From positions 99,025 to 163,024 of the forward strand of contig CACYKF010000004.1 in assembly GCA_902774905.1 (NCBI GenBank): 64,000 nucleotides of DNA. Reading direction: 5' to 3'. The translations under genes were made by a program, and so were the position numbers. The stretch is from an uncultured bacterium (GTDB lineage: Bacteria > Cyanobacteriota > Vampirovibrionia > Gastranaerophilales > Gastranaerophilaceae). Below, in pieces: positions 16,914-55,318 of the stretch (the stretch's first letter is position 1; the number at the start of each line of letters is the position of its first letter). A model generated the notes under the pieces. The model was not told the DNA's origin and ran no database searches. It saw only the letters and a list, made by a program, of their open reading frames with translations.

Positions 16914-16988
16914 CTCCTACTGAACACTCTTAAATTTGATTAACAAGGAGATCCTGAAACGAGTTCAGGATGACAATTTTGTTTATTT
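16914..16988. repeat. 75-nt repeat carrying a GGATCCTGAA-type REP, copy 1
   Basis: The segment from CTCCTACTGAACACTC to GACAATTTTGTTTATTT contains the inverted repeat ATCCTGAA/TTCAGGAT. Near-identical copies start at 29823 and 52728. In copies 1 and 2 it is followed by a ~270-bp module with a small hydrophobic ORF; in copy 3 it is joined directly to the right-hand flank. Confidence 0.8.
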
Positions 16989-17007
16989 ATGAATTATTAT
17001 TAAGTTT

Positions 17008-17037
17008 TTGTTCTTTAAACTTTTAGTCTGTTATTAT
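17008..17037 (+). promoter_or_regulatory. Promoter of hydrophobic-peptide locus, copy 1
   Basis: TTGTTC (-35), an 18-base spacer and an extended -10 box TGTTATTAT. The second copy at 29907-29936 keeps both boxes (TTGTTA, TGCTATTAT) and the spacer length while the spacer sequence differs, which supports function. The predicted transcript begins near the TGTTGAGGGTAAG that starts the invariant leader. Confidence 0.6.
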
Positions 17038-17134
17038 TTTTGTTGAGGGTAAGCCCTGTATAAACAACACTTACTTTCCGTTCGCTGCGACTGTAAATCG
17101 TACCAAAACGAATGATGAAAGGAGGTGGTATCAT

Positions 17135-17203
17135 ATGGAATTTAGTGTAACTACAAAAGCGCTAATCCTATTATTGCTAATAGTAATAGCGCTTAAACAC
17201 TAA
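17135..17203 (+). CDS. 22-residue hydrophobic peptide, type I toxin-like, copy 1
   Basis: An ATG 9 bases after a perfect AGGAGG opens a 22-codon frame: MEFSVTTKA, then a hydrophobic run of Leu/Ile/Val (LILLLLIVIAL), then KH. The second copy at 30033 matches in 13 of 22 positions with mostly conservative changes and many third-base differences, which is how a translated peptide diverges. Inverted repeats AAGCGCTA/TAGCGCTT bracket the membrane-spanning codons. Size and layout resemble Ibs, Fst or Ldr toxins; no antisense RNA has been shown. A membrane micropeptide of other function is possible. Confidence 0.65.
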   Translation: MEFSVTTKALILLLLIVIALKH

Positions 17204-17207
17204 ATCA

Positions 17208-17256
17208 AAGAGGGCTTTTAAAGAGGCAGGCTGCAACCTGCTTCGCCCTTTTCTTC
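17208..17256 (+). terminator. Nested hairpin terminator of peptide locus, copy 1
   Basis: Outer arms AAGAGGGC/GCCCTTTT enclose a second stem GAGGCAGG/CCTGCTTC (one G-T pair), followed by TTTTCTTC. The same structure is found in copy 2, almost unchanged. Confidence 0.75.
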
Positions 17257-17286
17257 ATTATAAACTATTATTCTGCATTTTTCAAG

Positions 17287-29753: not shown

Positions 29754-29889
29754 TTGTTGGGTTACACCCAACCTACATTAAAATATGCTTTGTGTTGGGC
29801 AGGTATGCCCAACATACTATGGCTGAACACTCTTAAATTTGATTAACAAGGAGATCCTGAAACAAGTTCAGGATGACAATTTTATTTAT
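29754..29889. repeat. Repeat island before peptide locus copy 2
   Basis: Contains GTTGGGTTACACCCAAC and GTTGGGCAGGTATGCCCAAC hairpins (29754-29818), then copy 2 of the 75-nt repeat (29823-29889) with ATCCTGAA/TTCAGGAT. A frame open through here from 29839 is a reading of repeat DNA. Confidence 0.75.
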
Positions 29890-29906
29890 GAATTATTATT
29901 AAGTTT

Positions 29907-29936
29907 TTGTTATTTGATTTCTTTGTTTGCTATTAT
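29907..29936 (+). promoter_or_regulatory. Promoter of hydrophobic-peptide locus, copy 2
   Basis: TTGTTA, an 18-base spacer and TGCTATTAT. It matches copy 1 in boxes and spacing but not in spacer sequence. Confidence 0.6.
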
Positions 29937-30032
29937 TTTTGTTGAGGGTAAGCCCTGTATAAACAACACTTACTTTCCGTTCGCTGCGACTGTAAATCGT
30001 ATCTGTACGAATGATGAAAGGAGGTGATGAAG

Positions 30033-30107
30033 GTGAAATTCTGTATAACAGAAAAAGCGCTTTGGCTTATCTTACTGATAATCATTGCGCTTTACTTCAC
30101 CAAATAA
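30033..30107 (+). CDS. 24-residue hydrophobic peptide, type I toxin-like, copy 2
   Basis: A GTG 8 bases after AGGAGG opens a frame of 24 codons: MKFCITEKALWLILLIIIAL followed by YFTK. The GTG start aligns with the ATG of copy 1. An in-frame ATG at 30027 is possible but sits too close to the ribosome site; it does overlap the stop of an upstream frame (TGATG). Only 13 of the first 22 residues are identical to copy 1 although the flanks are nearly identical, and the differences are conservative. GCGC-cored inverted repeats again bracket the hydrophobic codons. The expected product is a single membrane helix with a short basic N-terminus. Confidence 0.65.
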   Translation: MKFCITEKALWLILLIIIALYFTK

Positions 30108-30154
30108 GAGGGCTTTTAAAGAGGCAGGCTGCAACCTGCTTCGCCCTTTTCTTT
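30106..30154 (+). terminator. Nested hairpin terminator of peptide locus, copy 2
   Basis: AAGAGGGC/GCCCTTTT around GAGGCAGG/CCTGCTTC, followed by T-rich DNA, as in copy 1. The stop codon of the peptide overlaps the first base pairs of the stem. Confidence 0.75.
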
Positions 30155-30264
30155 ATTATAAACTATGGTTTTACATTTTTCAAGACTACACACAAAATAA
30201 TATTTCCTTTTCTTGTTAAATATTTAATTTTTGCGTAAAATATCTTTAACAAAGGAAGATGTTT

Positions 30265-52692: not shown

Positions 52693-52727
52693 TTATATTT
52701 TTTGTTGGGTTTCACCCAACCTACAGG

Positions 52728-52830
52728 CTCCTACTGAACACTCTTAAATTTGATTAACAAGGAAATCCTGAAACGAGTTCAGGATGACAATTTTGTTTAT
52801 TTTATAAACTATTATTCTGCATTTTTCAAG
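52728..52830. repeat. Empty third copy of the peptide-bearing element
   Basis: The left flank (CTCCTACTGAACACTC to GACAATTTTGTTTATT) is joined directly to the right flank (TTATAAACTATTATTCTGCA to TTTTTCAAGT). In copy 1 these flanks lie at 16914-16988 and 17258-17286 with the ~270-bp peptide module between them. As in copy 1, the right end abuts the stop codon of a - strand gene (pheT). Confidence 0.75.
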
Positions 52831-52837
52831 TGACAAA

Positions 52838-55318
52838 CTACTCTCTGAAACTAATCTGTGCATAAGTTTTTTGAAGTTTTTCACGAACAGACTGCATTTG
52901 TTGTTCAATAATTTCATCTGTCAATGTTGTCGTTTCATCCTGCATTTTTATTCTGAACGCAACTGATTTAAAGCCGTCTTCAACATGTTCACCCTGATAA
53001 ATATCAAAGATTTCAGAGCCTTTAAATATATTTTGTTTAACGGAACCTTTGATAACCTTTTGAATATCCTCGCAGGTTACATCTTCATTTATAATAAATG
53101 CAATATCTCTGCGAACTTCAGGGAATTGAGGAATATGTTTAAATCTTGGCACTGATTCTTTTACGGCACCGATAAGTTCGTTCAAATCAACTTTAAACAA
53201 ATATGCTTTTTGATTTAATTTCAATTTATCCTCAACTGTCGGATGCAATTGACCAAAATATCCGATTGGTGTGGGTTTTTTGCCTAATAACATAATTACA
53301 CCCGTTCTGTATGGGTGAAGAACATTGTGCGACTGTGCCAATTCTGTTTTGTCGAGTGCTACAAATTTTATTCTTCTTGAGACTTCAAGTTCATTAAACA
53401 AGTTTTCAATAATACCTTTTACATAATAAAAACCTGTTTCAGTCTTAACTTCCCACTTTGAATTTTGAACTTCTCCGGTTATAACACCTTCAAGAACTCT
53501 TGTTTCTTTTACACCTGTGTGCTTTTCATCAGCCTGACCGACTTTTATATAAGTTTTGCCGATTTCATAAGCCCAAAAAGTTTTCTGACCGTTATCAAAA
53601 TTTGTTTTCATGCAATTCAGGACACTGACGGCAAGATTTTGTCTTAACATTGAAAATTCTTCACTTGCAGGATTTGCAACTTTTATGGCATTTTCATCAT
53701 CATAAGTCATTTTGAATTTATCTAATAAAGATTTTCCGATTAATGAACTTGTCTGAATTTCGTTAAGTCCTGCGCTTTGCATGATATCTCTGACTTTTGC
53801 AATAACTCTTTCTTCAAGAGAAATTTCAGGCAGTTCTGTTTTTGACGGTAACGAAGGAGAAATCTTATCATAACCGTTAATTCTTGCAATTTCTTCGATT
53901 AAATCTATTTCTCTTGAAACATCACCGGCTCTGAAACTCGGTACTGCAAATTTTGCAGCAAGTTCGTTTCCGCCCAATTTTTCAAACCCGAGTTTTTCAA
54001 GAATATTTATACATTTTTCCGGTTCTATTTCACAACCCAAAATTCTTTTTATTTGTGCGTAGCGCAGAGTTATATTATTTTCAGGCAGTTTATTTTCTCC
54101 GTCTTCGACAACGCCAACAACTTCTGCATCTGCGTATTCAACCAAAAGTTGCATCGCACGCATCAAGGCAGGTTTTACTGCTTCTATATCAATTCCTCTT
54201 TCAAATCTTGCACTTGCTTCACTACGATAACCCACACTTCTTGCAGATTTTCTGTTTGAAACAGGGGTAAAATATGCGGCTTCTAATGCCATAGATGTTG
54301 TATTGTTATCAATTTCGGAATTTTCACCGCCAAATACACCCGCCAAGCATACACCTTTATCTTTTGTGGCTATCAAAACACTATCCGTTGTCAATTCTCT
54401 TTCAACACTATCTAATGTTGTCAGTTTTTCGCCTTCTTTTGCGCGTCTTACACACAAATACCCGTCTAATTTGTCAAAATCAAATGCATGCAACGGACAA
54501 CCGTATTCAAGCATTACATAGTTTGTAATATCTACAACATTATTTATTGGGCGCATGCCTGATGCAATCAATCTTTTCTGCATCCAGTCAGGAGATTTTT
54601 TTATTTTTATATTCTTCAAAAGTCCGACAGAATAGTATTTACAAACATCTTTATCAATTATTTCAACTTTGAATTTGTCAGTTGTTAAATCTTTTGTGCA
54701 CTCTATAGGATTAAATTTTAACGGCTTATCAAACAATGCACACAGTTCTCTTGCAACCCCGATAACAGACATTTGGTCACCCCTGTTTGCCGTTGGTGCA
54801 ACATCAATAATAGTATCCTTTTCAAACCCTAAAACATCTTTTACATCAATACCGATTTGAACATCAGGAAAAATTCTGTTCAAAACCAAAATTCCGTCTT
54901 CTTCCTGATAATTTCTGTCAGAAACACCGAGTTCATCTGCAGAACAAAGCATTCCCTGAGATTCAACTCCGCGAATAACCGCAGGAGTAAGTTCAAATTG
55001 TTCGCCGGTTTTTCTGTCCAATACTTTTGAACCGACACTTGCATAAGGAACAATCTGACCTTCTTTTATATTTTGCGCACCGCAAACAACTGTTTTAATT
55101 CCCGATCCTGTGTTTACCGTAACTAAATGCAAATGATCTGAATTTGGATGATTGTCGATTTTTTCTATTTTCACCGTTTTTATATCCGTAAAAGACGGTT
55201 TTAAATCTTCTATCGCTTCAACCTCTAATCCGCTCATAGTAAGTTCATGAGCAATCTGGAGCGGTTCTTTGTCAGATAAATCAACTAATTCGTTCAACCA
55301 ATTCAATGATATTTGCAT
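52838..55318 (-). CDS. pheT: Phenylalanyl-tRNA synthetase beta subunit
   Basis: An 826-residue protein with the full PheT layout: N-terminal MQISLNWLNELVDL, the tRNA-binding-like EMAP domain (TVKIEKIDNHPNSDHLHLVTV, VVCGAQNI), the B3/B4 editing domain (GMRPINNVVDITNYVMLEYG, LHAFDFDKLDG), B5, the catalytic-like core and the C-terminal anticodon domain (HIPQFPEVRRDIAFIINEDV). It pairs with PheS to charge tRNA-Phe; pheS is not in the window. GAGGG lies 8 bases before the ATG. Confidence 0.95.
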   Translation of the reverse strand: MQISLNWLNELVDLSDKEPLQIAHELTMSGLEVEAIEDLKPSFTDIKTVKIEKIDNHPNSDHLHLVTVNTGSGIKTVVCGAQNIKEGQIVPYASVGSKVLDRKTGEQFELTPAVIRGVESQGMLCSADELGVSDRNYQEEDGILVLNRIFPDVQIGIDVKDVLGFEKDTIIDVAPTANRGDQMSVIGVARELCALFDKPLKFNPIECTKDLTTDKFKVEIIDKDVCKYYSVGLLKNIKIKKSPDWMQKRLIASGMRPINNVVDITNYVMLEYGCPLHAFDFDKLDGYLCVRRAKEGEKLTTLDSVERELTTDSVLIATKDKGVCLAGVFGGENSEIDNNTTSMALEAAYFTPVSNRKSARSVGYRSEASARFERGIDIEAVKPALMRAMQLLVEYADAEVVGVVEDGENKLPENNITLRYAQIKRILGCEIEPEKCINILEKLGFEKLGGNELAAKFAVPSFRAGDVSREIDLIEEIARINGYDKISPSLPSKTELPEISLEERVIAKVRDIMQSAGLNEIQTSSLIGKSLLDKFKMTYDDENAIKVANPASEEFSMLRQNLAVSVLNCMKTNFDNGQKTFWAYEIGKTYIKVGQADEKHTGVKETRVLEGVITGEVQNSKWEVKTETGFYYVKGIIENLFNELEVSRRIKFVALDKTELAQSHNVLHPYRTGVIMLLGKKPTPIGYFGQLHPTVEDKLKLNQKAYLFKVDLNELIGAVKESVPRFKHIPQFPEVRRDIAFIINEDVTCEDIQKVIKGSVKQNIFKGSEIFDIYQGEHVEDGFKSVAFRIKMQDETTTLTDEIIEQQMQSVREKLQKTYAQISFRE

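Follow-up and report, generated by a model that had tools for sequence, protein, structure and literature searches.

Among described type I toxin-antitoxin systems, hok/sok has an mRNA with a closing helix between its 5' and 3' ends and a metastable 5' hairpin; Hok is about 50 amino acids (aa) long and has the coupled mok frame, while Sok overlaps the leader. Ibs is covered whole by Sib, and IsoA overlaps its toxin RNA on the 5' side. The mRNAs of type I toxins have been described as sharing a hallmark, a transcript that is closed 5' to 3' with the Shine-Dalgarno sequence (SD) blocked, and metastable hairpins have been described for aapA3 (PMC6733600). Before the 2025 Microcystis candidate, type I loci had been reported solely in Proteobacteria, Firmicutes and Tenericutes (PMC12390103). 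The present analysis concerns a 64,000-nucleotide (nt) stretch of DNA (the window) from an uncultured bacterium of the Gastranaerophilaceae (contig CACYKF010000004.1), which holds two copies of a short locus, copy A at 16989–17257 and copy B at 29890–30155. We consider each copy to be probably a type I toxin-antitoxin locus of a new family (probability of about 0.78).

The locus is like AapA/IsoA of Helicobacter and other Epsilonproteobacteria (PMC6733600) in the following features: (i) multi-copy chromosomal loci with a small hydrophobic peptide and an overlapping antisense RNA (predicted here), (ii) a long-distance 5'-3' helix closing the full-length mRNA (here a prediction joined by covariation) and an SD blocked in a hairpin, and (iii) short covarying hairpins, one of them inside the coding sequence. 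It differs in that the predicted antisense RNA begins beyond the toxin terminator and stops within the frame, and in an anticodon-like leader loop that is new here; no sequence relation to AapA was seen via Rfam and Pfam, a direct comparison with AapA not being among the searches made. Hydrophobic peptides of 19–35 aa, repeated loci and a cis or overlapping antisense RNA (predicted here) are points of likeness to Ibs/Sib, Ldr/Rdl and Fst (par), though the APxxxG motif of Fst (PMC8309996) is absent, and the family profiles of Ibs, Ldr, Fst and TisB gave no sequence match. The likeness to hok/sok lies in the 5'-3' closing helix and the 5' metastable hairpin, both predicted here. In contrast, the toxins of BsrG/SR4, TxpA/RatA and YonT/SR6 of Bacillus subtilis are 30–60 aa and have no sequence relation to the peptides described here; to our knowledge, the antisense terminator in those systems is not a covarying hairpin that encodes the membrane segment of the toxin. 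In the cyanobacterial lineage at large, a single further type I candidate has been put forward, MsoT1/MsoA1 of Microcystis aeruginosa, for which the toxins, unlike ours, are 39–81 aa, the antisense candidates mostly overlap the coding sequence and 3' untranslated region (UTR), and Melainabacteria and Vampirovibrionia go unmentioned (PMC12390103). An earlier description of the locus in Melainabacteria or Gastranaerophilales was not found in the open literature, subscription papers lying outside the scope of that search.

The layout of both copies matches the original prediction, in that a promoter, a shared leader, AGGAGG, a small open reading frame (ORF) and a nested terminator are all present as it described. 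The plus-strand features are:

17008–17037 (+): toxin promoter of copy A, with a weak −35 TTGTTC, N18 and TATTAT; extended −10 TGTTATTAT
about 17044 (+): putative start of the copy A toxin RNA
17046–17057 (+): 5' element of copy A, AGGGTAAGCCCT, which may fold on itself locally (AGGG/CCCT) or pair with AGGGCTT of the 3' element at 17211–17217
17086–17102 (+): leader hairpin of copy A, loop CTGTAAA at 17091–17097
17120–17125 (+): SD of copy A, AGGAGG, in a predicted stem with CTTACTTTCC located upstream
17135–17203 (+): toxin-like peptide of copy A, 22 aa, MEFSVTTKALILLLLIVIALKH
17211–17252 (+): 3' pairing element and nested toxin terminator of copy A
29907–29936 (+): toxin promoter of copy B, TTGTTA-N18-TATTAT
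29945–29956 (+): 5' element of copy B, AGGGTAAGCCCT
29985–30001 (+): leader hairpin of copy B, loop CTGTAAA
30033–30107 (+): toxin-like peptide of copy B, 24 aa from a GTG start, VKFCITEKALWLILLIIIALYFTK
30109–30150 (+): 3' pairing element and toxin terminator of copy B

In both sense promoters TG precedes the −10, the leaders are identical over about 70 bases, GGAGG starts at 17121 (copy A) and 30020 (copy B), and the toxin terminators (17211–17248 and 30109–30146) are identical. An ATG at 30027, which would give copy B a peptide of 26 aa, is disfavoured because it lies too near the SD; with the GTG read as Met, the stated match of the two peptides in 13 of 22 residues holds. Since a minus-strand promoter comes after the terminator, the conserved unit reaches to about 17286 in copy A and about 30184 in copy B. 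Fourteen same-genus copies were alignable, and the frame, the terminator and the flanking promoters are conserved.

Three lines of evidence carry the toxin-antitoxin assignment, along with the occurrence of the locus in multiple copies and tandem arrays across the order: selection on the peptide frame, a covarying mRNA structure, and conserved signals for an antisense RNA. A total of 107 copies were extracted, a few of them near-identical, and nearly all have a short frame downstream of a strong SD that encodes a peptide of 19–41 aa with a hydrophobic core, K-A-L-x-x-x-L-L-I-I-I-A-L, in keeping with the small hydrophobic membrane peptides, below 60 aa, that mark the type I class. The original prediction had proposed the dN/dS of the peptide as a check, a value near 1 speaking against it. 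The pooled ratio is about 0.28 (1443 pairs from 90 distinct cores) and pN is lower than pS in 97% of the pairs, although dN/dS is to be taken as a rough guide because the pairs are non-independent and RNA structure also constrains the sites. The two alternative frames gave 0.71 and 2.5, and 86% of second codon positions in the peptide frame are T. These values indicate that the peptide frame evolves under purifying selection. Inspection by eye found the frame retained in L055, L078_1804, L103, L126 and L045, and no SD in L118. Six peptides were without a match in Pfam up to an E of 1, and in NCBIfam they gave only chance matches to TatA, far below the cut-off. L105, L107, L119, L116 and L125, which come from other families within the order, are longer variants of 35–41 aa, with the antisense-terminator hairpin placed after the membrane segment.

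The predicted transcripts of the two copies fold with z-scores of −4.5 and −6.6 against dinucleotide shuffles. In an alignment of 106 distinct rows that had been fitted to the model structure, changes on both sides were seen for 30 of 31 model pairs. Such changes occupy 601 cells, as compared with 160 for shuffles, and 95% of alignment cells pair in the model structure versus 31–52% in slid structures. The 5'-3' helix (helices 1 and 2 of the covariation analysis) was also examined with a partner test that does without the fitted alignment: the 5' element scored 17.4 with its own 3' element, 15.2 with those of other copies (maximum 15.7) and 11.5 with shuffled ones. Pairs found among the copies include AAGCCCT/AGGGCTT, AGCTCC/GGAGTT, AGAAGTCC/GGGCTTCT and ATGCCC/GGGCAT. 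Because the 5' element is able to form a local AGGG-TAAG-CCCT hairpin, a short-lived 5' hairpin that later gives way to the 5'-3' helix is plausible. The covariation is sufficient to define the RNA structure ahead of experiment. A second small covarying hairpin (helix 4, of the TTCTGT/ACAGAA type) was observed at 17139–17158 of the window and at equivalent positions, over the N-terminal codons and just before the antisense terminator.

The signals on the opposite strand are:

17257–17285 (−): antisense promoter of copy A, TTGAAA-N17-TATAAT, −35 at 17285–17280 and −10 at 17262–17257, 11 of 12 consensus matches
17157–17194 (−): hairpin in the coding sequence of copy A, predicted antisense terminator, with a T-tract opposite 17155–17158
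17151–17250 (−): predicted antisense RNA (putative antitoxin) of copy A, about 100 nt with two hairpins, from promoter, terminator and fold
30155–30183 (−): antisense promoter of copy B, TTGAAA-N17-TATAAT, 11 of 12 consensus matches
30054–30093 (−): hairpin in the coding sequence of copy B, predicted antisense terminator
30047–30148 (−): predicted antisense RNA of copy B, about 100 nt, also folded

A minus-strand TTGAAA-N16/17-TATAAT with at least 10 of 12 matches was present in 98 of 106 copies, which are related by descent, as compared with 4.5% of shuffles, and it lies nearly always 4–8 nt beyond the sense terminator; conservation of the unit ends at its −35. A hairpin followed by a T-tract on the antisense strand, within the coding sequence, was found in 98 of 99 distinct ORFs versus 20% of shuffles. 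Covariation in its stem includes the pairs GCGCT/AGCGC, GCACT/AGTGC and GAACT/AGTTC. The conserved minus-strand promoter and the in-frame terminator therefore predict an antisense RNA of about 100 nt that would be complementary to the 3' half of the mRNA, covering the toxin terminator along with most of the peptide gene, and not to the leader, where the original prediction had looked for it. One DNA segment would thus encode a membrane helix on one strand and terminate a transcript on the other.

In the mechanism that we propose, a plus-strand mRNA of about 205 nt would pair its 5' end with the sequence just before its terminator, and, with the ribosome site also held in a stem, little peptide would be made. 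The minus-strand RNA of about 100 nt would silence or destroy the mRNA by pairing with its 3' half. A drop in the antisense RNA, or trimming of the 3' end that opens the 5'-3' helix, could then allow translation of the peptide, which would enter the membrane and slow or kill the cell. The coding-sequence hairpin would serve both strands, encoding the ends of the membrane segment and terminating the antisense RNA. The idea of a new type I toxin-like family has thus been strengthened by the selection on the frame, the antisense promoter and terminator and the covarying 5'-3' helix, while two of its original parts, the leader antisense RNA and a dependence on a repeat (see below), have been given up.

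The family is widely distributed in the order Candidatus Gastranaerophilales. The original prediction had proposed a search of related genomes, which was done with covariance models. The first model, built from the 14 same-genus copies, found the locus in 16 of 46 genomes of the genus and 157 of 383 genomes of the order, and a broader model (R2) in 180 of the 383 genomes and 34 of 52 genera; hits of such models to the copies they were trained on are expected by construction, and the strict filters used in the large genome searches mean that weak matches were lost. In a sample of 386 genomes from the phylum, the matches listed were all in Candidatus Gastranaerophilales. An exact 58-base leader pattern had no match in GTDB contigs, and Rfam gave no match at gathering score in the window and one sub-threshold match in six loci. 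Many genomes are multi-copy, with head-to-tail arrays at about 300 bp spacing in G101, G105 and G183. Type I loci would thereby gain a deep, diverse, multi-copy family from the uncultured Gastranaerophilales of the gut, where about half of the sampled genomes carry it. Tandem arrays of 2–4 copies at this spacing were also noted at L086 (L078), L087, L088, L089, L090, L092, L119 and L039; in tandem arrays the leaders and 3' parts are often nearly identical and the peptides different.

Several points weigh against the assignment. Membership of the type I class rests on toxicity and an antisense RNA, and here transcripts, toxicity and neutralisation are predictions from sequence. The fitting of the alignment to the model structure leans the covariation count, and the shared descent of copies enters into the count of antisense promoters. 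Furthermore, the peptides matched no toxin family already described, the start codon is lost in L044, and some copies match poorly (L118 and L128).

The explanation that survives best next to a toxin-antitoxin locus, though we regard it as unlikely, is a regulated membrane micropeptide with no toxin role, which would modulate a membrane protein or process while the antisense RNA merely tunes its level. Small membrane peptides with such activities are known, and the selection, the antisense promoter and terminator and the covariation would fit this explanation as well. However, the peptide diverges fast between paralogues: within a genome, identity is 90% for the leader, 87% for the antisense promoter and 81% for the 3' UTR but 69% for the frame, a pattern of divergence in the peptide and of conservation or homogenisation in the non-coding parts. 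A toxin is also a better fit than the partner of one conserved protein to the tandem arrays, to the patchy presence and to the several layers of translational block. The strong covarying structure, with two hairpins within the frame, could instead suggest a non-coding structured RNA in which the open frame is a by-product of hairpins, but this is very improbable given the SD and start codon in nearly all copies, the low dN/dS in the peptide frame only and the T-rich second positions. In L105, L107 and L119, from another family of the order, the peptides are 37–38 aa and the hydrophobic segment is kept although it lies outside the hairpin; coding is therefore separable from structure. A leader peptide or attenuator of a downstream gene, for which a short ORF followed by a terminator would speak, is scarcely credible, since the neighbours differ (a convergent alcohol dehydrogenase gene after copy A, a TPR protein gene after copy B), conservation stops at the antisense −35, and the ORF has no run of same-amino-acid codons.

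Besides the elements that support a toxin-antitoxin locus, the leader contains a hairpin of its own. A CTNNAAA loop with a stem of 3 bp or more, upstream of the SD, was found in 56 of 100 distinct leaders, as opposed to 0.28 expected from shuffles. When the best hairpin was chosen regardless of its loop, the 37 seven-base loops had C in 33, T in 31, two variable positions, and then A in 33, 34 and 36. The stems vary and covary (helix 3), as in ACGA/TCGT, ACAAA/TTTGT and CACG/CGTG. The CUNNAAA loop resembles the pattern of a tRNA anticodon loop, C32-U33-N34-N35-A36-A37-A38, in which A36-A37-A38 is the recognition sequence for tRNA isopentenyltransferases (PMC7200024). The data favour no mechanism for this loop, and we put forward as a possibility, itself quite unlikely, that the hairpin functions by mimicking the anticodon arm of a tRNA. 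The toxin mRNA would then be bound by a factor that modifies tRNAs or binds anticodons, and toxin translation would be set by the state of translation or of tRNA modification. The locus would also offer a test case for whether mRNA leaders can sense tRNA biology through an anticodon-like loop. Reading the loop as a GNRA tetraloop was rejected, as a base other than G often occupies the third loop position, and a pairing between the heptaloop and the 3' TTTT was unsupported, as changes at the two variable loop positions are not accompanied by any in the 3' sequence. A second class of leaders (L100, L102, L103, L104, L108, L110 and L120) is without the CTNNAAA loop and has GTTAAG both in the leader and directly after the stop codon (GGGAGTTAAG).

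The genes next to the copies are ordinary chromosomal ones, encoding an ABC transporter, an alcohol dehydrogenase, a FabG-like reductase and a TPR protein. No third copy was found by blastn across the 2.0-Mb genome, in which the locus has two copies. A dispersed repeat with inverted GATCCTGAAAC..GTTCAGGAT arms lies upstream of the toxin promoters and occurs at 22 places in the genome. The downstream flanks of copies A and B are common to copies in related species, and the sites are therefore inherited ones. The claim that the locus rides on a mobile repeat was rejected on the grounds of these shared flanks and of the 22 repeats against two copies of the locus. An origin from a plasmid or phage was likewise rejected, phage and plasmid records being without a match; a narrow test, the exact terminator pattern, had no match in IMG/VR. 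The remaining features of the window are:

16925–16990, 29828–29885 and 52739–52800: dispersed repeat, an element separate from the locus
52721–52860: third site, from which the locus is deleted, the upstream repeat being joined to the −35 side of the antisense promoter

This third site matches, on both sides, a site in the related species G002 that has an intact copy (L028). About 270 bp are missing, from the toxin promoter through the edge of the antisense −10, and the part of the antisense promoter left behind leads us to read the site as a natural joint loss of toxin and antitoxin.
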